Below are positions 1,967 through 17,768 of a stretch of 34,484 bases of DNA, one piece after another. Source of the stretch: a virus. Position 1 is the first letter of the stretch, and the number at the start of each line of letters is the position of its first letter. Below the pieces are notes generated by a model that searched no databases, was not told where the DNA came from, and saw nothing but the letters and a program-made list of their open reading frames with translations. The position numbers were made by a program, and so were the translations under genes. The stretch covers positions 1-34,484 of the IMG/VR virus record IMGVR_UViG_3300048839_000711. One strand, written 5' to 3'.

Positions 1967-4057
1967 TTACTCGGTCACGGCCGGGGTGGGGTGCCCCAGT
2001 TCATCGTCGGCTGGGATTGCTGTGAATGAAAATTTGGTTGGGTCCATGGGTCGCTCGGTTACTTGATATTCGATGCGGCCAGTGACATCCGGGCTTGCGA
2101 ATTGGTTTTCGATTCTTCGCCCATATCCGCCGCTGATGATCGTTCGGATCGATTCAATGAGCGGGAAATCATCAAGTATCGTGGCAAAGCCAGACGTGTG
2201 GGTGGTGGTGGTTGTCGCTTCCTGCTCTTCGTCCGTGTTGATCTGCGTGAGCGTTACCTCGGTGAGCATTTCGGCGGTGATGTCGATTTCGGGTGGCTCG
2301 CCATCCCATGCAGGAACGTCGGTCTCGTAGACCAATGCGAGTGACACCCGATCGATGCGGCGTGTGTCGAAACCTATCCCCCAAAACCGATAGTGATACG
2401 CCACGGAGTAGGACCGGTTGGTAGTCATGTCGGGATGGACGTAGGACGATCGATTGCCGAACATGCGGACCGGGCCCCCACCACCGAATACCCGAAGCCC
2501 TAGGTGTGGAACGGGTCGACGCCCCGGGTAACCCGAATACGGTCCGAAGTATTCGTCGCCGGACTGGAGTTTCGTGTCGTAGGCGAGTGACAGCGTTACG
2601 CGAATCGTTCGCACTTGCGGCACAGGTGGCAATTCTGCGTCTGGCTCGTCTGGGTCGGGTTCGGGGGGGACGTAGTCGGGATCGTCGAATTCGTCGATGA
2701 CGGCGATTCGCACAGACGTATTGGTAAACGGATGGGCATTGTCAACCGTTCCACCGCCTTGGTATGGACGCCACTGGAAACGTTTGTCCGGTGGCGTATC
2801 TGGTGGATCCCAGTAGGCTTCGGGATTCAGCTCACTTTCGCCGTCAATTGTGTCGGGTATCTCGCCCTGCAGCTCGATGTAGGGCTGGGAAATTCGACGG
2901 AATTCGCGAATCAGGCTTCCCGAACGGTCAACCGGATCGCGAATGATCGTCTCGCAGCCGATGTAGCTGCGGTCGGGCGATGACACTCGACGGCTCCATC
3001 GATTGACACGATCCGTGTGGTCGTTGGCTTCTTCAACCGATGCGTATCGCGAGTCAGGTTGATTTGCATCAAGTACGGGATCGTAGGTGCTGCGTCGCAT
3101 CGCGATCTGTTGCCGCGAGATTTCCGCGTCTGGGAATTGATAGTTGCCGATCGGCGTTTTGATCGTGTTGACATGCCATCGGGGAGTGGCAAATGAAGGC
3201 CCGTTGTGTGGGCAGGATTCCACAGGCGGACATTGTCGGCGGTAGTATTTGGTTGGTTCGTCGGGTGATGCGTCTAGGTCGGTTGGTTTGCGAAGCTGTG
3301 TTCGACCGGCTGTTAGATGCAGCACAGGATCGATATTGAGTGTGAGTTCCTTAGGTCGGATGTGTAGTTCCAGGGTTTGTTTTTCGCTCGCGGCGACGAG
3401 TGGGAAAAACACCTGCTCGTGATACTCGTTGTACGACCAGAGAAATGCTGTATTGATTAACCCGGAATAAAAGAAAGTTCCGTATGGAAGGTCGATCTGG
3501 AACCATCGATCGATGTGGTCGTTTATCAGATCGATTTCGGGTGAAACCGTGTTCTCGACTGGATTGAGCAATGATCTGGAGAGACCAACGCCAAGAGGCG
3601 TGAACACGAACCCGAACCCTTGTTGGCCAGAGATGATATCACTGTAGTCGGATTCAGCGGTGAATCGCTTCTGGCCAACACGAATGCGGAGCGGTTTCTT
3701 GTGTCGATAGACCTGTGATGGTCCTTCGTGTAATACCCAATCTCCATCGCCGTCAACAATATTGTTTGAGTCGGGTGTTTGAAACCTAAATTCAACGCCG
3801 CCAAAAACATTATCTCCAGGAGGACGGGCGCCAATCGGACTCCCCAAACCGAGGAACAAGTCGACATAGGAATACGGATACGGAATCTCCTTTTTGATTC
3901 TCAGCCAGCCATCGTCGAGCAATTCACAGAGTCGATGCAGTTCTTTGATTCTCTCGTCTGTTGTCGGTTCGTTGCGCCGCAGGATCGTTTCGTAGTCTTT
4001 TGGGATGAAGACATTGACGATTTCGCAGCAACAGCAGCCGCCCAGTATGTTTCCCAT
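1967..4057 (-). CDS. Large unrecognised tail-tip or fibre protein (696 aa), last gene of the late operon
   Basis: I do not recognise a family. The ATG at 4057 is preferred over the GTG one codon earlier because GGAG lies 8 bases upstream of it. The protein begins MGNILGGCCCC: four consecutive cysteines near the N-terminus with no signal peptide. The rest is rich in Pro, Asp, Tyr and Arg. An acidic proline-rich linker (around residues 470-490, EPDPDEPDAELPP) separates two probable beta-rich parts. A Thr-rich stretch occurs near residue 615. It follows the 142-aa gene by 10 bases and ends about 127 bp before the tRNA fragment. Position and size suggest a virion protein of the tail tip or fibre. 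A carried accessory protein cannot be excluded. Confidence 0.75.
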   Translation of the reverse strand: MGNILGGCCCCEIVNVFIPKDYETILRRNEPTTDERIKELHRLCELLDDGWLRIKKEIPYPYSYVDLFLGLGSPIGARPPGDNVFGGVEFRFQTPDSNNIVDGDGDWVLHEGPSQVYRHKKPLRIRVGQKRFTAESDYSDIISGQQGFGFVFTPLGVGLSRSLLNPVENTVSPEIDLINDHIDRWFQIDLPYGTFFYSGLINTAFLWSYNEYHEQVFFPLVAASEKQTLELHIRPKELTLNIDPVLHLTAGRTQLRKPTDLDASPDEPTKYYRRQCPPVESCPHNGPSFATPRWHVNTIKTPIGNYQFPDAEISRQQIAMRRSTYDPVLDANQPDSRYASVEEANDHTDRVNRWSRRVSSPDRSYIGCETIIRDPVDRSGSLIREFRRISQPYIELQGEIPDTIDGESELNPEAYWDPPDTPPDKRFQWRPYQGGGTVDNAHPFTNTSVRIAVIDEFDDPDYVPPEPDPDEPDAELPPVPQVRTIRVTLSLAYDTKLQSGDEYFGPYSGYPGRRPVPHLGLRVFGGGGPVRMFGNRSSYVHPDMTTNRSYSVAYHYRFWGIGFDTRRIDRVSLALVYETDVPAWDGEPPEIDITAEMLTEVTLTQINTDEEQEATTTTTHTSGFATILDDFPLIESIRTIISGGYGRRIENQFASPDVTGRIEYQVTERPMDPTKFSFTAIPADDELGHPTPAVTE

Positions 4058-4070
4058 CACTACGGCTCCG

Positions 4071-4499
4071 TCAGCAAGGCCAAATGGTTGCGGCTTTGAT
4101 CCGGCCGTTGGTCGGTAGGATCAGAAACCATTCCCCGGCTGGAATGGCGTCCGTTGGAGAGAAGTTGGCCACCACTGCCTTTTGCGGATTCTCCGGTGTA
4201 CCGAGCGGCTCGAATTTGTATTCACCTTCTTCGCCTGGATTGATTGCCTCAGGATCGACTGGAACAATCTTGTATATCCGCACCTCAACCGCCGTGATGA
4301 TCACCTTGTCCTCGTCGCGATCAAGTGTTGCTTTCGGAAGCGATTCATTGTGTTTGGCGACCACCAGGATTCCGCCACCACCGCCTGGAATTGATGGTGC
4401 CTGTCGTCGTTGTCGCTGCCGATGCAAGGGGGTGACAGAGCGTTCCGACAGCTTGACCACTCTGCTGATGCGCGACTTTGCTTCGCGGTTGTAGGCCAC
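4071..4499 (-). CDS. Unrecognised 142-aa protein between tail-fibre genes
   Basis: The start is the GTG at 4499. A strong GGAGG lies 9 bases upstream, inside the end of the preceding gene, whose TAG ends one base before the GTG. The frame stays open further upstream, but that part overlaps the LamG gene and reads as low-quality sequence. The protein has a basic N-terminus (MAYNREAKSRISRV), a glycine turn (PGGGGGILVV, about residue 38), then a beta-rich body ending WFLILPTNGRIKAATIWPC. No catalytic motif is visible. It lies in the tail-fibre operon and is probably a small virion or fibre-accessory protein; this is inference from context only. Confidence 0.7.
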   Translation of the reverse strand: MAYNREAKSRISRVVKLSERSVTPLHRQRQRRQAPSIPGGGGGILVVAKHNESLPKATLDRDEDKVIITAVEVRIYKIVPVDPEAINPGEEGEYKFEPLGTPENPQKAVVANFSPTDAIPAGEWFLILPTNGRIKAATIWPC

Positions 4500-4500
4500 C

Positions 4501-5241
4501 CTAGTTGACCTCCAGCAGCGCTTCGCAATAGCTGCGGTACTCATGCTTGATCTCGCTTGCCGACAGCGATGCGGCTCGGATAGCGACTTCCTGGTACGCG
4601 CCGTACAATCCGCTGGCGTCACGGTATCGGCTGAGCGAGGCGATGCCCGAGAGTGGTTCTGTGGTGGTGATAGCGTGCTTAACCTTGCGGCCATCGTGAA
4701 AGAGCTGAACCGGCAGCCCGTTGACGTATATCAGATATTCGGCATCCCGGCGAACGAATGTGATATGCGTCCATTTGTCTCTAACCAAAGGGCTGGCATT
4801 GATAACGTCTTCGTCGGGTTTTCGCTCGTTGATCCAGATGATCGGTTCCAGCATCCACGACAACCCAAACCGTAGATCGTCGCCGACACTAAGAATGGTA
4901 GTCTCTAATTTTGGGCTCGTTGGTTTGCACCAGATCGATACCGTGATCGATCGTGACAATTCAAATGGAAGTACAAAATACTGACGACCATCCATGACTT
5001 CAGCATCTTCGCACAAAATACCTCGCACCAATTCGCTAGGTTCGTCAAGGCCGATCCGGGTCGCGTGATTTCCTTTGCCGCTGATGTCGTTGCCGTGATA
5101 TTCGCCGAGCGGATAATAGCCGAGCAGGTCGGCATCGATTTGTCCAGGAACTCGCCATATTCCGGCTGGTGCGAATTGCAGAGCGAGCTGAGGTGCGACC
5201 GATTCTACAGTGCATCCACATGAAACAACCTGGAGTGTCAT
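4501..5241 (-). CDS. LamG / concanavalin A-like tail protein
   Basis: A 246-aa protein with a LamG-type jelly-roll fold from about residue 38 onward. The visible signatures are LGYYPLGEYHGNDISGKGNHAT near the start of the domain (split here at the G turn), SITVSIWCKP in the middle strands, WTHITFVRRD with YLIYVNGLPV, and a closing strand GAYQEVAIRAASLSASEIKHEY. Such domains bind glycans or proteins and are common in phage tail fibres. A short N-terminal stretch (MTLQVVSCGCTVES) contains a CGC motif. The start ATG overlaps the upstream stop by 4 bases, indicating translational coupling. Role: probably receptor or glycan contact at the tail tip; the family is recognised, the partner is not. Confidence 0.8.
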   Translation of the reverse strand: MTLQVVSCGCTVESVAPQLALQFAPAGIWRVPGQIDADLLGYYPLGEYHGNDISGKGNHATRIGLDEPSELVRGILCEDAEVMDGRQYFVLPFELSRSITVSIWCKPTSPKLETTILSVGDDLRFGLSWMLEPIIWINERKPDEDVINASPLVRDKWTHITFVRRDAEYLIYVNGLPVQLFHDGRKVKHAITTTEPLSGIASLSRYRDASGLYGAYQEVAIRAASLSASEIKHEYRSYCEALLEVN

Positions 5242-7592
5242 CGAACAAGCTCCCGCACTGAAAGAAAGAGTGGCTGCTTTTCAGCGGGTGTGTAATACGG
5301 TTGCAAAATCAGCTTCAGCCGATTCCCATTGATTTCGCGAATGAAGTGGGGAACCGGTGTGTCGCTCGGATCAAACAGGCTGATCGCATCGATTGGCACA
5401 ACCCGTCCGAAGTCCAATTGGCAAACAATCAGCGAACGCGAAAGGGTTGAATCAGGCGATGGCAACACCCAGTCGAGTCGATATAGCTCCGTGCTGACCG
5501 CTTTGCCGTTCGCATGAAGTACGATCGATTGCGGCGATTCGATAGCTGAACTGCGTCGATGCGCCGCAAGATAATGAAAGATCACTGGGACAGGATCGGT
5601 GATTCGCGATCGAATCGACTCTTGGCCATTCGTCCTTAGGTGAATGTGAAACGGGTCTCGGAAATGCAACTTGTTTCCGCCGTCGCCGGATTCCGCCAGT
5701 AGGACGCTGTTGTCTGTGGCTATCTGGTTATGAAACCGAGCCTCGGCGGATGCGAGTCGAAAAATCGTGACTCGTGTATCACCCGGCAGTGGCGTCGTAA
5801 CGATCGGCGACATCAGCAGCAATTGTTCGTCGATCAGCGTCTTGGCGATCGAGACCGACAGTACCGATGATTCGGTCAGGACAATGGCGGACGGGTCGCC
5901 AGAGCCATCCTGGTATGTCCGATGTCTACCGGCACCCTGGAGCATCACCGAGTTTGTTGTGGTCCCCGATGTACCGATGGTTCGGAAGATCGAACCATCG
6001 GCAATATAGATAGGGGTGGCGTCAGAGTAAGACCATGTTCGCTGTATGGCGGCTTCGGGACTCGCCATGATCCCGACACCGTCGCGCACGACAGTGCAGA
6101 GCGTTGGAGGCGCAAAGAGTCGTTGCTCGTCGATCAGTTGCGCATCTTCACGAAATCCTGTCGACACCACGGCGTCTGGCTGAACAAGAACGCTATTCGA
6201 CTCCCGTACTCCGAGTTTCGTTTTTGCGTCTGGGCCGAGCAAGATACCAGGAACATCGCCGTCGTCTGGCACCGTGGGGATTGCTGTTGATCGAAAATCA
6301 TCTTCCGGCAACCGCATTGCGATCCACGTATTGCCGACCATTATCGGCTCATCGAGCGGATTGATCAGGACGGTCTGCGTTTTTTGCGCGAAGTTGCCCT
6401 GTTGTCCTACGATCCGACTTGGAGGCATTCCCGACGCCTCCATCGGGTAATAGCCTCCGTAAACATTATCACCGCCATTCCCGGGTAAAGCGGATGCTCT
6501 GTTTATGTATGTGATTTCTGGCGAAATTATTCCTTGATACCAGCCCGACAAGTATTGCACGAACTGGACGCCACCCTTGCTGCCAAACCAACTTGCGCTT
6601 AATCGGTGATCTCCGTCATTGAACCCACTGAATGGCGTTGTTGGATGAACGTTTCGCCAGATAGTCAAAAGAGTCGTGGCGGTATAGAAGCCAGCCGATC
6701 CTGGCACATAGCCGCTCGTGAAACCCAGTGACACATCTGACCCGGTGTAGCGGTGAAAGTATGCCCCTGTGCCCCACGGATCAGCCGATAAAGTCGTCCA
6801 ACCGCTCGGAATCACGCTCTCTCGCGCATCCGAGGTCGGGATGTTTGGGTAAGACGATCCGTTGTAATGAGACGCTAGGATTACGTCACCATTCTGTATC
6901 GTGTCTGGCAATCCAGCAGTCACGTTACCAGAGTAGACCAGTTCGACCTCAGTGTTACGTGTTTCGTTGTACCCGATCGCTATTGAGCCAACTGTTTGCC
7001 GTCGCTGAACGTTGGGCGGCGTGATTATGTGCAGGGTTGATGCGAGTGGGCGTGCGTACTCGAAATTCCGCTCGGTGACCGACACGGTGCCCGATGTATG
7101 GAGAGGGGTTCCGCCCATTGGGCGACTCACGCTAGTACCAGCCGAGCCGCCAGAGTACCTCAGAAAATCCAGCAGCGTGCAGTCAGCTACGATTTGAAAC
7201 GCATTGTCGTTGTCCGTGAATCCGTAGTTGTCTTCTATGCGGTTCCACTTGCGGTTCAACACCGATAGCGGACCCAGTGGGCCGCGATAGACGACGTGTG
7301 TAATCCGTGATTCTTGGTTAAACGGAATGCTGGGAGGAAGGATGGAAAACGATTGATTTGCCGCCGACGCGGTGAACGAATAGAACGCCGTTCGCAAGTT
7401 GGCGGTGTTGTTGGACCCAATGATCGTGGCGTCGGGAATGTGCGGCGGTGAGCTGAAACCGTCCGTTGATGAAAAAATTACTACCAAATCGCCTGGCTGC
7501 GCATTGGTAGCAATACTTGTCGGCGGGTTGTTGCCACCCTGGTCGTAGACCGTTGTTATGACTTGCCGCCGAATCGGCGCGTAGGCTGGCAT
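5238..7592 (-). CDS. Large unrecognised tail-fibre/tip protein (784 aa)
   Basis: Starts at an ATG immediately after the preceding TAG. No signal peptide or membrane segment. The composition (Ser, Thr, Gly, Asn, Val, few Lys and Cys) is that of a secreted or virion beta-protein. The N-terminal 120 residues (QPGDLVVIFSSTDG, then ITHVVYRGPLG) resemble a compact beta-sandwich; similar blocks recur (around residues 230-320 with NGDVILASHYNG and TTLLTIWRNVHP), suggesting duplicated domains. The C-terminal 100 residues (PIDAISLFDPSDTP, LKLILQPYYTP) look like another beta domain. It is flanked by two LamG-like genes and is probably part of the adhesion apparatus. No enzymatic motif was seen. Confidence 0.75.
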   Translation of the reverse strand: MPAYAPIRRQVITTVYDQGGNNPPTSIATNAQPGDLVVIFSSTDGFSSPPHIPDATIIGSNNTANLRTAFYSFTASAANQSFSILPPSIPFNQESRITHVVYRGPLGPLSVLNRKWNRIEDNYGFTDNDNAFQIVADCTLLDFLRYSGGSAGTSVSRPMGGTPLHTSGTVSVTERNFEYARPLASTLHIITPPNVQRRQTVGSIAIGYNETRNTEVELVYSGNVTAGLPDTIQNGDVILASHYNGSSYPNIPTSDARESVIPSGWTTLSADPWGTGAYFHRYTGSDVSLGFTSGYVPGSAGFYTATTLLTIWRNVHPTTPFSGFNDGDHRLSASWFGSKGGVQFVQYLSGWYQGIISPEITYINRASALPGNGGDNVYGGYYPMEASGMPPSRIVGQQGNFAQKTQTVLINPLDEPIMVGNTWIAMRLPEDDFRSTAIPTVPDDGDVPGILLGPDAKTKLGVRESNSVLVQPDAVVSTGFREDAQLIDEQRLFAPPTLCTVVRDGVGIMASPEAAIQRTWSYSDATPIYIADGSIFRTIGTSGTTTNSVMLQGAGRHRTYQDGSGDPSAIVLTESSVLSVSIAKTLIDEQLLLMSPIVTTPLPGDTRVTIFRLASAEARFHNQIATDNSVLLAESGDGGNKLHFRDPFHIHLRTNGQESIRSRITDPVPVIFHYLAAHRRSSAIESPQSIVLHANGKAVSTELYRLDWVLPSPDSTLSRSLIVCQLDFGRVVPIDAISLFDPSDTPVPHFIREINGNRLKLILQPYYTPAEKQPLFLSVRELVR

Positions 7593-12155: not shown

Positions 12156-13033
12156 CACAGGAAGAATCCAAAATCGGGGAACATGGCTTCGCGGTATCCG
12201 TCGAACTCCAACCAGATCGGCTCTTTGTCGACCGGCAAAATCCGTCCTTCCTTTGTCAATGCGATCGGCGTGGTGACGGGATCTCCGTTTGGGTCGAACT
12301 CCCCGTCATCGTTGACGCGAATACGGATACGCTTGGCGCGTCCGTCGTCATCTTCCCCGTCGCCCTTTTCGTAGTATCCCTGGTTCAGCAAAATGAAACG
12401 CCAGGTATCGTCGCTGAACTTGAATTCGTAGGATTTTTCGTAGTACGTTCCAAGTGTGCGGTGGTACTTGCTCCGCAACGTTGGCGCTTGAAATTTGACC
12501 GTGCGGCGGGCTGCACCCTGCCACGGTGATCGATTGACCGTGTCTCGCAGGTCAACACCGAACAACGCCATTGCCGCAGGTTCGTTGCGCGTGACGCGCA
12601 GAATTGGCTGCGAGTCTTCGCGAGTCATTACGTCGTCAAATCGATCGCCAACTGTGTTTTGGATTGGCTTTCCGTGTATGTCACGTTCGATCAGTTTTTC
12701 ATTCTGCGAAAAGATCATTTCGATCTGAGCCGGTTCTTCGACAGGGTTTTCTACCTGTTCGCTGGACTCTGGGACGCCGAAGACCACGCTATACATCCAG
12801 GCAAAATTGTTTCCTCGCACCGGCTCAGCACTGGCCGAAAGAACAATAGCGTCGGGGTCGTGATCGTTTCCAATACGAAACTCCTGTCCGAACCCCCACG
12901 GCATGTTATCTAAGATGGTTTTGACGTGATCATCGGGGCTGCTGACCGTGACCAAGTATTCGGCGGTATAGGACGGGCCATCCTTGTTTTCGCTGCCAGT
13001 TACTTTCTCAAGTGTGTATCGAACGATTCCCAT
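12155..13033 (-). CDS. Probable tail-tip protein after the tape measure (292 aa)
   Basis: The first gene after the tape measure gene, starting with a 1-base TAATG overlap. This position normally holds the distal tail protein, the base of the tail tip. The sequence is acidic, without membrane segments: N-terminal beta-strands (IVRYTLEKVTG, YTAEYLVTVSS), a WGFGQEF segment, a central AAMALFGVDLRDTVNRSPW segment, and a C-terminal part with YYEKSYEFKFSDDTWRFILLNQGYYEKG and acidic KGDGEDDDGR. I recognise no family signature; the assignment is by gene order only. It could also be a baseplate-hub component. Confidence 0.7.
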   Translation of the reverse strand: MGIVRYTLEKVTGSENKDGPSYTAEYLVTVSSPDDHVKTILDNMPWGFGQEFRIGNDHDPDAIVLSASAEPVRGNNFAWMYSVVFGVPESSEQVENPVEEPAQIEMIFSQNEKLIERDIHGKPIQNTVGDRFDDVMTREDSQPILRVTRNEPAAMALFGVDLRDTVNRSPWQGAARRTVKFQAPTLRSKYHRTLGTYYEKSYEFKFSDDTWRFILLNQGYYEKGDGEDDDGRAKRIRIRVNDDGEFDPNGDPVTTPIALTKEGRILPVDKEPIWLEFDGYREAMFPDFGFFL

Positions 13034-15858
13034 TACAGCGACTCCAGACCGGCTGATGTGGCTGTATTGGATGCGATTCGATTCAGAATCGTTGCGTGCC
13101 GCTGCGACTCGGACAGTTGCGACTGTGCCAACTCCTCCAGTTTTTTGGTATCAATCGCCTTTTGTGTGGCGCTCTGGATGGCAGCGGCCATGTTGGTCGG
13201 CAATTGTGCGGTCGCTTGCAGCTGTGCCCGTGCGGCCTGCGTCATCGGAGCCACCCACGGCGGCGTCTGGCTGGCTCCGTCGCTGCCGATTGCTCGTGTG
13301 CGAGCGATCGTGTCGAGTGCAGCCTTGCTGCCGTATCGAGCCGATCCGAGTTCTGGTGCAGGTGCCCCGCGAGTGGCCGAGCTATACTCGGCACCGGCTT
13401 TGATCGCCGCACGCGACGCGGTGACGGCGTTAATCGTGCCCGCCTTTTCCATTCCTTCGATCCGCTTGATCTCGTCTTGAAACTTCTCCAGCGGAGTGCG
13501 TAGGTCTTCGGTCAACTGCTTGCCTGCCTGCTTGGCCTCTTCGGCGGCATCAGCCATTGCGGTCATGTTGTCGATGATCGCTTGAGCAGATTTTTCGGAA
13601 GCTTCTTTTTCTTCCTCCAGGGCTCTTTTGCGGTCTCTCAATGCTTTGATTGCAGCTAGGTCAATTGCAATGTCGGCCTCGCTCTTGCCGTCCTTTCGCA
13701 GTTGTTCGGCAATTTTTGCATCCTCCGCAGCGTCGGCGCCAAGAGCCAACTCACGAATCTGATCGGTGAGTTCTCCGATTCGAGTTTTCGCTGCGTTAGT
13801 TTGTTCTTCGTCAACCGGTTTGGCGACTTGGCCCCTCAACTCTCGCAGCTCTTTTTTGGCGTTCAGGATTCCATCAGATGCGATGCCTTCGAGCCAATCG
13901 CCTCCGTTGAACATCGCTGCAATCTCATCGCCGATTCCCTCGCCGGAAAGTGCTTTCCTCAGCAGTGATGGAATCGATGTGAACAGATTCCATAGGGTAT
14001 CGATGAATGTTTTCCCGAATCGCTGCATCATGCCCATGATCTGGCCAGGCAGTTCAAAAAAGAGCCGAACGACTTCTTTGACACCCATCCAAAAAATCTG
14101 CTTCAGTCCAGCCCAGAGCATTTTGGCGGCGATCGTGTACTGACCGGCAGCTAGCGCTTCTTTGAGACCGGCAGCGACTTCCTTGACGACCGCAATCACG
14201 CCACTTGCCGAGCTGACGATATAGTTCCACGCATCGCCGAGCAAACCCGAAGATACGGTAGCAGCGGCTGCAATCCCAACCAAAAGGGCGATTCCCGCGA
14301 CGACGGCCACGGTCGCAGCGTACAGCGGAATCAATGGCGACGTGATCACAGCATAGGCCGACGCGATCACGCCGCTGGCTACGGTCCAGGCAGTCGCAAG
14401 CACCCCAGCCGCGCCAGTCGCCGTGGCGGAAGCTGCGGTAGTTAAACCGAGTGCTCCGGTGAGAATCCCGAAAGCTCCGGTTGCAATACCCTGGACCGCA
14501 GCCAACCCAGCGGTAGCGATCGATTGGACTCCGAAAGCGGACGCGATCAATCCTGACCCAAACGCTAACGAGCGAGCAGCAATGAAAGACGCAATGAGTC
14601 GACCAGCAAGCAAATTTGAGGCAATTGCCGCCGCGTTGGTCGCGATCAGGTAGGTACCAAGGGCTACCTTCGCCAGTGCAACGCCGTTGGTCATCAAGAG
14701 GATTGCTGCCCTTGCTGTCCCGGCTGCAATCGCCCAGGCGATCATCGCAGTCCTGGTCACCACCACTTGGATGCCGAATGTTCTCACCGCAATCCCGGCG
14801 ATAACCATGGCGGCAACGGCTGCGTGAATCGCCAGTTGTATAGCCACCCATGCAGCCAGTGACGCGACTACCGCAGTGCGGACCATGGTATATGCAATGC
14901 CGAATGCGGCTGTTGTTGCGCGTGCCACGGTCATCACGACATTGAACGCAGCGATCGCCTTTGCCGTTGCGTACAATGCCGCACCGACGCCCACCGCCGC
15001 TGCCGCCGCAGTCAGCCACGATGCTGCCAAACCCTCTGTGGTCGCCAATGTGCCAGCAAACGCACCAATCATTTCACTGATCGCATCCATCGCAGGCCCG
15101 ATCACCGCCATCAATTCGGTGCCGATCGGTAGCATCGCCATCGACACATCGTCGACAAGCGTGGATAGCTTTCCAAGAAACGTCTTGGACTGCTTTTCCA
15201 TCATCCCGAACGCAAATCCACCTTCGCTGGTAAGCGAAATGAACGCCTGCTCAAGATCGGAGAAATTGACTTTGCCATCTTTGACCAATTCTTTGACAGC
15301 CGAATCTGCAACGCCAAACTGCTTGGCAAGCTGACCGATGACGGGAATACCGCGTCCCGTCAACTGGTTGATGTCTTCGGCGAATAGCCTCCCCTGCACG
15401 CGGGCCTTGCCGTAAATTTCGGCAATGTCTCCAATGGGCGCTCCGATCGCCGATGAAATATCGCCGATGCGGCGTAGCTCCTCGGATACCATGTCGGCAC
15501 CGGTACCGAATGCGAGCAGTTTTTGTCCGGCAGATGCGAGTTCGGCAAATTGCAACGGCGTTGATGCGGCGAGGTCCAATATCGATTTCATTGCGGTTTC
15601 CGCGCGGCCCGCATCGCCAATGATCGATTCAAATGCAACGGATGTTTGTTGCAAATTAGCGGCAAACTTCAGCGGTGCGGCAGCAAATAGACCCATCGCC
15701 GCCCCGGCACCGATCAACTGTTTACCGATTCCGCCAAGAATCGCGGATGTCGCCCTGAATTTAGCCTCCATCTCGCGTAGGCCGCGATCAACGGCTGCGC
15801 GATCGAGTGAGACGCGGACAATTGCCTTACCGGCTTCGATGGCTCTGGCGCTGCTCAT
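13033..15858 (-). CDS. Tape measure protein
   Basis: A 941-aa protein, the longest in the window. It acts as the molecular ruler in the tail lumen and is released during DNA injection. Residues ~55-240 match the conserved tape-measure N-terminal domain: LQQTSVAFESIIGD, ILDLAASTPLQFAELASAGQKL (split at the ST), RIGDISSAIGAPIGDIAEIYGKAR, FAEDINQLTGRGIPV, LVKDGKVNFSDLEQAF. Residues ~260-560 are an Ala/Val/Ile-rich hydrophobic stretch with many predicted membrane-like helices. Residues ~650-830 are charged and helical (coiled coil). The start overlaps the upstream stop by 4 bases. It follows the chaperone genes, as expected. At about 1.5 angstrom per residue the tail would be near 140 nm. Confidence 0.95.
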   Translation of the reverse strand: MSSARAIEAGKAIVRVSLDRAAVDRGLREMEAKFRATSAILGGIGKQLIGAGAAMGLFAAAPLKFAANLQQTSVAFESIIGDAGRAETAMKSILDLAASTPLQFAELASAGQKLLAFGTGADMVSEELRRIGDISSAIGAPIGDIAEIYGKARVQGRLFAEDINQLTGRGIPVIGQLAKQFGVADSAVKELVKDGKVNFSDLEQAFISLTSEGGFAFGMMEKQSKTFLGKLSTLVDDVSMAMLPIGTELMAVIGPAMDAISEMIGAFAGTLATTEGLAASWLTAAAAAVGVGAALYATAKAIAAFNVVMTVARATTAAFGIAYTMVRTAVVASLAAWVAIQLAIHAAVAAMVIAGIAVRTFGIQVVVTRTAMIAWAIAAGTARAAILLMTNGVALAKVALGTYLIATNAAAIASNLLAGRLIASFIAARSLAFGSGLIASAFGVQSIATAGLAAVQGIATGAFGILTGALGLTTAASATATGAAGVLATAWTVASGVIASAYAVITSPLIPLYAATVAVVAGIALLVGIAAAATVSSGLLGDAWNYIVSSASGVIAVVKEVAAGLKEALAAGQYTIAAKMLWAGLKQIFWMGVKEVVRLFFELPGQIMGMMQRFGKTFIDTLWNLFTSIPSLLRKALSGEGIGDEIAAMFNGGDWLEGIASDGILNAKKELRELRGQVAKPVDEEQTNAAKTRIGELTDQIRELALGADAAEDAKIAEQLRKDGKSEADIAIDLAAIKALRDRKRALEEEKEASEKSAQAIIDNMTAMADAAEEAKQAGKQLTEDLRTPLEKFQDEIKRIEGMEKAGTINAVTASRAAIKAGAEYSSATRGAPAPELGSARYGSKAALDTIARTRAIGSDGASQTPPWVAPMTQAARAQLQATAQLPTNMAAAIQSATQKAIDTKKLEELAQSQLSESQRHATILNRIASNTATSAGLESL

Positions 15859-16277
15859 GAACGCCTCCGCATCGAGTCAGTCAATGCTCTGCGGATCGTG
15901 CTGCCCCGGGCGACACGTTGCAATGCTGGCCACATATAGGGTCGGGCTGCGTAGCGGATTCCAAATTCCAATTCCTGCGGAACCGTTTTTCCGCCTCGCG
16001 ACGCCAACCCGATCGAGCCAACGATGACACTGTGATCGCTTGGTATTGTCGCCGATTGTATGTTGCGAATTGATCGCCGACCGATTGAATGTGCGGTCGG
16101 TGTCTGGCCCGGTCGGCTCGTTTTTCCACGGAACCGAATCGATGCGGTTGCCTGTTCGGCGATTCGCTGGCCTATTTCCGGCAATTGTGCCCGTTCCGCG
16201 CCATCAATGGCATCATGCACGGCACCGGAATCGATGTCGATGATGTGCATTTCGTAGGCGACGGAAAACATGCTCAT
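15855..16277 (-). CDS. HK97 gp10-like / minor tail protein (out of the usual order)
   Basis: A 140-aa basic protein. The C-terminal pattern ELEFGIRYAARPYMWPALQRV, here broken at the G, resembles the HK97 gp10 / lambda gpZ family ending (E.G....RPF..PAL). An N-terminal helical region (AERAQLPEIGQRIAEQATASI) also fits. That family helps join head and tail or complete the tail. In most phages it lies before the tail tube gene, but here it lies between the chaperone and the tape measure. Starts with MSM: either ATG (16277 or 16271) is possible; the first overlaps the upstream TGA. Family call is moderate. Confidence 0.6.
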   Translation of the reverse strand: MSMFSVAYEMHIIDIDSGAVHDAIDGAERAQLPEIGQRIAEQATASIRFRGKTSRPGQTPTAHSIGRRSIRNIQSATIPSDHSVIVGSIGLASRGGKTVPQELEFGIRYAARPYMWPALQRVARGSTIRRALTDSMRRRS

Positions 16278-16756
16278 GTGTTCGGTTTCTGCTGATCAAT
16301 TCTTCGTTTGTGGTACTCGATGTATCGGCCCAACTCATCACTATCACGCTGCGGATTGCTTGGCGGTCGGCGACGAAACGGATGCAAGTCGTGTGGTGAA
16401 ACAGGTTTCCCGCTGTGAACGCTCAATAGTGCAGCATGAAGCTGTGCTGTGTGGTTCCATTTTTCCTCGACAACAGCCATGTATCGCCAACGCAGTCGAT
16501 TGATTGTTATGTCGCGCCAATCACTTGCTCCCGAGATGGCGATAAGCTCGTCGATCCATCGTCTGCTATCTGTTTCGCTTCCATCTCCGCCATCGACCGA
16601 TCCATTATCTTGTTCGCTTTCTGAACTTCCCTTTGAATCATCCTCGTCATCGTCTCGCCGTTGATCCGCGTCATCGCCGTATTCGTCAATGTCTTCGCTG
16701 CTTCGCGGACGCGGTCGATCACCGACACCAGTACATCCTGCGACTGCGTCTTGTAA
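16274..16756 (-). CDS. Frameshift-encoded T domain of the tail assembly chaperone
   Basis: This frame is -1 relative to the upstream chaperone gene. It is open for at least 160 codons, with no ATG, GTG or TTG before the ATG at 16480. From 16558 it reads WIDELIAISGASDW, then RDITINRLRW, the ATG, EEKWNHTAQLHAALLS and SPHDLHPF. This matches the recurring W...L....W..TA.L.A......P.DFHP pattern of lambda T-like chaperone domains, and the conserved part begins 26 codons before the only start codon. Between about 16690 and 16560 the frame encodes a very acidic Ser/Asp/Glu linker. The T6 run at 16760-16755 (GTT TTT TAC in the G frame) is the best slip site visible; slipping there would give a fusion of about 260 aa. 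The exact site is not proven. The 68-aa reading from 16480 is probably only a fragment. Confidence 0.7.
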   Translation of the reverse strand, partial: LQDAVAGCTGVGDRPRPRSSEDIDEYGDDADQRRDDDEDDSKGSSESEQDNGSVDGGDGSETDSRRWIDELIAISGASDWRDITINRLRWRYMAVVEEKWNHTAQLHAALLSVHSGKPVSPHDLHPFRRRPPSNPQRDSDELGRYIEYHKRRIDQQKPNT

Positions 16757-17055
16757 AAAACTCGCAACGCCGCCTCCAGAGCGACGTGAGCAGGTGGAGC
16801 GGTTTCAGGATCGCACAGGATTTCGTCAACGTCGTTCGCCCCCAATCCAAGCTTGACCGCCTGTCGATCCAAGATGGCAAGCAACACCTCGCTTCGCTTG
16901 ACTGGGTCAATCAGAACGTCGGAGATTGATTTCTCGTCCAACAGGTCGATGCCATGCTCGTCACGCAACGCTACATAGATTCCAACGGTGATGATTAACC
17001 GCCATCTTCGGTCGTTGCCATCAACGATTTCTGGTCTTGGCAGAGTGTCATTCAT
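16507..17055 (-). CDS. Tail assembly chaperone, G-like protein
   Basis: A 182-aa protein placed between the tail tube gene and the tape measure gene, where lambda G sits. The N-terminal ~100 residues (RRWRLIITVGIYVALRDEHG, a DVLIDPVKRSEVLLAILDRQ helix, the acidic NDVDEILCDPE loop) form a compact domain similar in layout to planctomycete phage chaperones. A basic helical tail follows. The protein probably coats the tape measure during tail assembly and is absent from virions. It starts 8 bases inside the end of the previous gene. A -1 frameshift is inferred to extend it into the T domain (see that entry); the protein of 182 residues would then be the unshifted G form. Confidence 0.75.
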   Translation of the reverse strand: MNDTLPRPEIVDGNDRRWRLIITVGIYVALRDEHGIDLLDEKSISDVLIDPVKRSEVLLAILDRQAVKLGLGANDVDEILCDPETAPPAHVALEAALRVFYKTQSQDVLVSVIDRVREAAKTLTNTAMTRINGETMTRMIQREVQKANKIMDRSMAEMEAKQIADDGSTSLSPSREQVIGAT

Positions 17056-17314
17056 GAGTTTTTGCCTGCGGTTTCTTGTATGCGTCTTTCGGCTTTTCCG
17101 AAACCGCGAGCAATCGCTCGGCTGTTTTCAGACTCATCATCAACCTGTGACGAGTTCCGCCGAAATCCGCTTGTGTCTTGCGGATGCCAACGGCTATGTC
17201 GTCGTGGCCAATGTCATTGGTGGCCAATTCGTCAACCAGTGACGCGCGAACCGCAACGTAGCGTGGGCTTGACTTGACCGCCTTAGCGAGCTGTGGCCTT
17301 GTTTCGCACGTCAT
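17048..17314 (-). CDS. Unrecognised 88-aa protein between tail tube and chaperone
   Basis: A basic, helical protein of 88 residues with no membrane segment and no recognised motif. The central part (SPRYVAVRASLVDELATNDIG, RKTQADFGGTRHRLMMSL) looks like a compact helical domain; the C-terminus is Lys-rich. The ORF overlaps the next gene by 8 bases and starts 13 bases after the tail tube stop, so it belongs to the tail operon. It may be a small tail accessory or a chaperone partner. No better call can be made. Confidence 0.65.
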   Translation of the reverse strand: MTCETRPQLAKAVKSSPRYVAVRASLVDELATNDIGHDDIAVGIRKTQADFGGTRHRLMMSLKTAERLLAVSEKPKDAYKKPQAKTHE

Positions 17315-17327
17315 GATTCACTTGATC

Positions 17328-17768
17328 CTAAATTGCTTGAACGTCGAACACTTCGCCGTCAACGTATGCGTCGGCTTCAGCGAGCGTAAACGAATGTTTG
17401 ACGCGATCGTTCGTCGGTTCTTCGACGGGTGAATCGGAAATGACATAGATGCCCTGAATCCCCGGGTCGGTGCCGATTTCGCCAGCGACAATGGCGACGT
17501 GAATCAATTCGCCATTCTCAGCAGCGGCGATGAGCTTCGCGAGGACTGGATCGCTTTGACCGTCTGGCCGCTCAAAGTATTCAAACTCTAAGCCCATCTT
17601 GACGTTTCCGGCCACCGTTTTTGTGTGGGTGGATTCGCGAAAGTCGTGTTCCGTGGTCGCTTGCGAGCGTGGGCGGGTTACGTTTTCCACTCGCCCGCAC
17701 AGCACCCAAGTCGGGCTGTCTGGCGTAGCAGTGTTCACATACAGTTTGCGGTCGCGTCCTAGACTCAT
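17328..17768 (-). CDS. Major tail tube protein
   Basis: A 146-aa protein in the tube position, between the tail terminator and the chaperone genes. Visible family-like features: LGRDRKLYVNTATP at the N-terminus, GRVENVTRP, a GLEFEYFER strand, an acidic C-terminal strand pair (VKHSFTLAEADAYVDGEVF) as in lambda V-fold tube proteins, and EIG..PGIQGIYVI. It would polymerise as hexameric rings around the tape measure protein. The start is well set by AAAGG 6 bases upstream of the ATG. No contractile sheath gene accompanies it. Confidence 0.8.
   Translation of the reverse strand: MSLGRDRKLYVNTATPDSPTWVLCGRVENVTRPRSQATTEHDFRESTHTKTVAGNVKMGLEFEYFERPDGQSDPVLAKLIAAAENGELIHVAIVAGEIGTDPGIQGIYVISDSPVEEPTNDRVKHSFTLAEADAYVDGEVFDVQAI

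Follow-up and report, generated by a model that had tools for sequence, protein, structure and literature searches.

A tail assembly chaperone pair probably made by -1 ribosomal frameshifting at a conserved mid-gene slip site in phages of planctomycetes and their relatives

The viral DNA analyzed here (34,484 nucleotides, called the window) carries a G-like gene and an overlapping T-like reading frame, which very probably encode a tail assembly chaperone pair expressed through programmed -1 ribosomal frameshifting. All features of the window listed below with coordinates lie on the minus strand. The 0-frame product is a G-like tail assembly chaperone (16507..17055; an ORF of 182 codons, 182 aa). 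The T domain (16274..16558) lies in the -1 frame and lacks its own start codon. More than 100 further viruses and prophages from planctomycetes or related bacteria share the same conserved slip point.

Locus and reading frames

The G/T locus is flanked by the genes of the major tail (tube) protein (17328..17768; Phage_tail_2 E 4e-4, below the curated cut-off; phrog_1407 E 1e-8) and of the tape measure protein (13033..15858; TMP_3 E 1e-18, phrog_9959 E 5e-57), with one small gene intervening on each side. Tail assembly chaperones are classically encoded at this place. Between the tube gene and G lies an 88-aa gene (17048..17314), an ORF whose 3' end overlaps the G start and for which no family was found. 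The gene between T and the tape measure gene (15855..16277) probably encodes a tail-completion-like protein; its match to phrog_5 reaches just E 0.25, and its relatives adjoin tail genes in L120 and L158-L160. Capsid and head-tail joining genes are located further upstream of the tail tube gene. The place of the tail-completion-like gene differs between loci, which is a gene move inside the tail module: in the window T and the tape measure gene flank it, in L120 it directly precedes the tape measure gene, and in L158 and several planctomycete loci a similar gene precedes the tail tube gene. Elsewhere in the window, an ORF at 438-1733 looks like a tyrosine recombinase gene, suggesting a temperate lifestyle.

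The T frame is the -1 frame of the G ORF and is open from 16804 to the stop codon at 16276-16274. It contains no ATG, GTG or TTG before an ATG at 16480, while the tryptophan of the conserved stretch WIDELIAISG is encoded at 16558, inside the G ORF and 26 codons ahead of that ATG. Between the slip site described below and T, the -1 frame translates into an acidic linker of about 66 residues (16559..16756), which overlaps the C-terminal third of G and which relatives keep free of -1 stops. The original prediction had read the locus in this way, with a start-less T frame, a conserved part beginning within G and an open, acidic linker; each of these points was borne out and all of its coordinates were right. 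A second IMG/VR record is 100% identical to the window over 16 kb including the G/T locus, so an assembly or base error is unlikely; for the same reason this record gives no variation to compare. Since 16% of synonymous recodings of the window are also stop-free in the -1 frame, the open frame of the window alone is not significant and relatives were needed. With relatives included, it becomes significant.

Relatives and the protected -1 frame

Direct searches with the G or T protein in a phage collection and in viral contigs matched only an identical copy. Relatives were therefore reached via alignments of the tape measure protein, which led to viral contigs and genomes. At one such locus, L158, the tape measure region is preceded by a G homologue whose -1 frame carries a start-less T; the slip site there is the canonical heptamer T_TTT_TTA. 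A first G profile, built from the G proteins of the window, L158 and L107, matched 40 of 392 Planctomycetota genomes, and profile searches found matches of the G/T family in 15 of 289 Verrucomicrobiota genomes and in 389 stretches of viral contigs. The locus set of the Planctomycetota search comprised 30 loci at first, to which 40 more were added; the set analyzed contained 73 loci forming 50 clusters at 85% identity. All 30 initial loci consisted of a G ORF with a T domain in the -1 frame, the latter in the form W-x-L-I-W-Q-L-A-G-I-x-G-V-x-P-G-P-L-T-L-R-E-L-V-W-M-A-E. T was in the -1 frame in every locus having a T (71 of the 73 analyzed), in all 42 independent viral clusters drawn from the 389 contig stretches and in the 18 Verrucomicrobiota loci examined (18/18). 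None of the genome loci, viral clusters and Verrucomicrobiota loci encoded G and T in a single frame. Profiles built without the window matched both of its parts: the G profile recognized the G protein with an E-value of 1.6e-10, aligning RVFYK with vdFfp of the relatives, and the T profile recognized the -1 frame with an E-value of 1.1e-7, the match beginning at open-frame residue 87. The window carries all features by which loci were assigned to the family: its G matches the G profile, its -1 frame matches the T profile, and T_TTY stands where the family has DFFP.

The T profile had no match in 198 genomes of the Hymenobacter phylum, an empty answer of weak weight. A weak G match in L019 and L020 was dismissed because it lies inside the tape measure ORF. 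L107 contains a G homologue (4208-4534) directly before the tape measure gene and no T; it may be a satellite, a degraded element or a system with one chaperone. In L158, a 561-codon ORF that by eye resembles a beta-helix surface protein (3971-5605) is inserted between T and the tape measure gene. One planctomycete genome (G359, contig C1) carries the G gene eight times, each at a separate position, which suggests many related prophages or tail islands.

Stop codons in the -1 frame of relatives would have spoken against a frameshift fusion, as the original prediction recognized. Between the slip site and T, not one was observed in 48 clusters, compared with 51 expected from synonymous recoding (log10 P -26), and an independent set of 42 viral clusters gave the same picture (0 versus 35.2 expected, log10 P -16.8). 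Upstream of the site, -1 stops were common (57 observed versus 71 expected from synonymous recoding), which places the beginning of the protected frame at the slip site. In five clusters a -1 stop directly precedes the heptamer at its 5' side, and hence the slip cannot lie further upstream. The sole exception was L399 on a Verrucomicrobiota chromosome, the only one of the 18 Verrucomicrobiota loci with a -1 stop between site and T; it is possibly a decaying prophage or a different arrangement. The compared sequences show selection for an open -1 frame and for Shine-Dalgarno complementarity, conservation of the site, homology of the proteins, their frame relation and the missing start.

Slip site, stimulators and predicted products

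The best visible candidate of the original prediction was the run of six T at 16760-16755, read in the codons GTT TTT TAC and regarded as non-canonical. The codons of the slip site are TTTTTTAC, and GTC TTC TAC is a synonymous form. In relatives the slip point coincides with a conserved DFFP motif, which is mostly encoded with the canonical heptamer T_TTT_TTC. The T_TTT_TAC of the window (16753..16759, with the P-site TTT at 16758-16756) aligns to the DFFP site in the same register and is homologous to T_TTT_TTC, so that the guessed site is indeed the conserved one. It is also non-canonical, as had been stated; its oddity, judged by the alignment, is that of the relatives' canonical site with the A-site Phe changed to Tyr. 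The T6A run of L158 stands in the same register as the run of the window in a codon-by-codon alignment.

Among the 73 loci, T_TTT_TTC occurred 49 times and T_TTC_TGC 11 times, followed by T_TTC_TTC, T_TTT_TCC and T_TTT_ACC (3 each) and by single cases of T_TTT_TTA and, in the window, T_TTT_TAC. T_TTT_TTC was also present in 34 of the 42 independent viral clusters, and all 18 Verrucomicrobiota loci had a slippery site at a DFFP-type motif, the -1 frame opening exactly there in several of them. At the first Phe position of the site, 40 of 47 clusters use TTT, compared with 41 of the 162 other Phe codons in the same genes. L254 has no T_TTY at the site, and L107, which lacks T, has T_TTC_AAG. In L241, L242, L248, L249, L274 and their relatives, the site reads T_TTC_TGC within an FCPSP motif and the A-site codon is not slippery; all else besides this codon is conserved in the subgroup.

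No canonical X_XXY_YYZ heptamer is present at the window site, since the A-site codon TAC cannot re-pair with TTA. Full P-site re-pairing after a -1 shift is possible at a single place of the overlap, T_TTT at 16759-16756, which corresponds to Z_ZZN, the tetranucleotide described as the minimal sequence for nearly all -1 frameshifting (PMC5009743). A canonical heptamer is usual but not required, and most annotated phage frameshift overlaps do without one (PMC10885494); experiments also support slippage by the peptidyl-tRNA alone (PMC5009743). The non-canonical A-site codon suggests P-site-only slippage, which is the likely mode in the window. We give even chances to the proposition that in the window and some relatives (those with T_TTT_TAC, T_TTC_TGC, T_TTT_ACC or T_TTT_TCC) only the P-site tRNA slips, on U_UUY and next to a non-slippery A-site codon, aided by an internal Shine-Dalgarno element. 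The -1 codon TTA is rare in the window phage (2.1 per 1000 versus 16.7 for TAC), which speaks against a high efficiency. If P-site-only slippage applies, the family would be a natural series varying only in the A-site codon. The natural variation of this codon at a fixed position makes the need for a slippery A site in -1 frameshifting directly testable.

A Shine-Dalgarno-like element precedes the site. About half of the clusters have GGAGG or GAGGAG some 8-13 nt 5' of the heptamer, at a distance that is nearly fixed across relatives. The mean pairing energy with the anti-Shine-Dalgarno sequence was -7.2 kcal/mol versus -5.3 kcal/mol expected from synonymous codons (43 of 48 clusters, p 3.5e-9), and the viral set behaved likewise (-7.5 versus -6.0, p 2e-5). 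The GGAGG of the window (16773..16777, 13 nt 5' of the heptamer, dG -9.9 to the anti-Shine-Dalgarno) is among the strongest of these elements. Downstream, a possible stem-loop begins 5 nt 3' of the heptamer (16700..16747, MFE -18.1). Structure at this place is only slightly enriched in relatives (mean z -0.9 to -0.6 versus about 0 elsewhere) and not significant in the 50-nt stretch of the window (z -1.2). A stem-loop as a required element is only weakly supported.

From these data we infer the following course of translation, including the exact slip at T_TTT_TAC, its P-site mechanism, its efficiency and the binding partners of the products. Most ribosomes would read G to 16507 and release the protein of 182 aa. 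A fraction would slip by -1 on T_TTT_TAC as the peptidyl-tRNA-Phe shifts its pairing between two overlapping UUU triplets, and would then continue in the -1 frame to 16274. The upstream GGAGG, and perhaps the downstream stem-loop, would stimulate the slip. The resulting GT protein would have about 260 aa, made up of 100 residues of G and 160 further residues that form the 66-residue acidic linker and the T domain. An AlphaFold model of G (mean pLDDT 77, based on three sequences only) shows a globular part up to a helix at residues 86-100, followed by a long helix at 104-167. In this model the slip codon is residue 100 and lies at the boundary of the two helices, and GT would therefore swap the long C-terminal helix for the acidic linker and T. 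By analogy with lambda, G may coat the tape measure protein, and the T domain of GT may recruit the tail tube subunit.

Three other explanations of the locus were weighed. A -1 shift could yield GT from a slip elsewhere in the overlap, or from transcriptional slippage at the T6 run. In favor of this, the A-site codon of the window heptamer is not slippery, about 100 codons of the overlap are free of -1 stops in the window, making other positions possible, and six T could be slippery for RNA polymerase. However, full P-site re-pairing occurs nowhere else in the overlap, and the internal Shine-Dalgarno element is conserved at its nearly fixed distance from this site. Polymerase slippage needs runs of about nine (PMC5009743), and it becomes less likely because relatives keep just T_TTY and not a long T run, which is down to four in T_TTT_ACC and three in T_TTC_TGC. 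Taken together, we regard a different slip position or transcriptional slippage as improbable.

T might instead be translated separately from the ATG at 16478..16480 or from a non-standard start, with G as a separate gene and the long -1 overlap as an accident. The ATG is in frame, and weak non-ATG starts always escape exclusion by sequence. This ATG is, however, residue 109 of the open frame, at least 22 residues inside the conserved T domain as counted from the start of the profile match, and corresponds approximately to the methionine of the LVWM block. No Shine-Dalgarno sequence was found in front of it (dG -1.9, weaker than background). It is probably an inner methionine and no start, and a separate start for T, which the original prediction had named as a possible objection, is very unlikely; most relatives have no start codons before T, and their -1 frame is stop-free back to the slip site and no further. 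Finally, a fused gene broken by a frameshift mutation or a sequencing error would look alike in a single genome. The arrangement is identical, and always -1, in about a hundred independent clusters, the second record of the window sequence shows no difference and none of the loci has G and T in one frame, which leaves this explanation scarcely any probability. Programmed -1 ribosomal frameshifting at the conserved site is thus our preferred reading.

Relation to known systems

Neither G nor T of the window matched a Pfam or NCBIfam family above the cut-off or gave a convincing PHROG, and the same was true for the relatives tested. In NCBIfam, G resembled a type III effector and chorismate mutase, but both matches were dismissed as far below the cut-off, and a search of the PDB with the G model returned chance matches only. 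T is weakly similar to Phage_tail_T (PF06223): it scored 14.9 bits and its relatives 17-19 bits against this family, below the curated cut-off of 25.9 although in the right region. The G/T pair of phages of Planctomycetota and Verrucomicrobiota is apparently a separate, undescribed family. Because no database family matched, annotation pipelines are likely to miss T or to call a truncated protein from the inner ATG. Among phages that infect common model hosts, frameshifting of tail chaperones is a familiar phenomenon. Our literature search found no account of it in planctomycete or verrucomicrobial phages among the open-access papers covered.

In lambda, G and T act in tail assembly and the shift occurs near the 3' end of g (PMC5009743). 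The lambda G/GT genes likewise lie between the major tail protein and the tape measure protein, with a start-less second frame in -1, and the proteins are of similar size (140 aa for lambda G, 182 aa for G of the window and about 260 aa for its fusion). The slip sequences differ (GGGAAAG in lambda), and the window has an internal Shine-Dalgarno element in addition. The position of the slip differs as well. In lambda it ends 18 nt before the G stop, so that GT is G plus T, and in annotated SEA-PHAGES genomes it averages 26 nt before the stop (PMC10885494). In the window it lies 83 codons before the stop (family median 63-65 codons), and the predicted GT consequently loses the C-terminal third of G. 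Homology of G to lambda G was not detectable. Judged by sequence, the window locus would function like lambda G/GT and belong to the functional class of frameshifted tail chaperones, while by the tests made its G/T pair appears to stand outside the lambda sequence family. The original assignment to a lambda G-GT type thus holds for the -1 frameshift, which the relatives support, and not for the architecture, in which the slip is mid-gene.

Other systems share single features with the locus. In P2, a small tail gene located before the tape measure gene is likewise extended in the -1 frame (E and E+E'); the P2 slip occurs 20 nt before the 0-frame stop, the proteins differ from those of the window and the P2 tail is contractile. 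The G-T pairs of phrog_344 and phrog_337 (for example in L017 and L137) occupy the same place beside the same tape measure family and also use the -1 frame; in L017 and L137 the slip falls on an A-rich run close to the end of G. G and T of the window did not match these two families. E. coli dnaX combines an upstream Shine-Dalgarno-like element with a downstream stem-loop as stimulators of the shift, a known arrangement (PMC6787027) that the window resembles. The gene and the slip sequence of dnaX are different, and its shift truncates the product, whereas that of the window would add a domain.

The mid-gene slip represents a second route to a G/GT pair, in which a helix is swapped for a linker and T instead of T being added to the whole of G. 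Both frames use the same stretch of about 60 codons. In L237-L306, G ends in a Ser-rich stretch (SSGSSPASSAS) that results from reading the conserved T start (LIWQLAGIVGV) out of frame.
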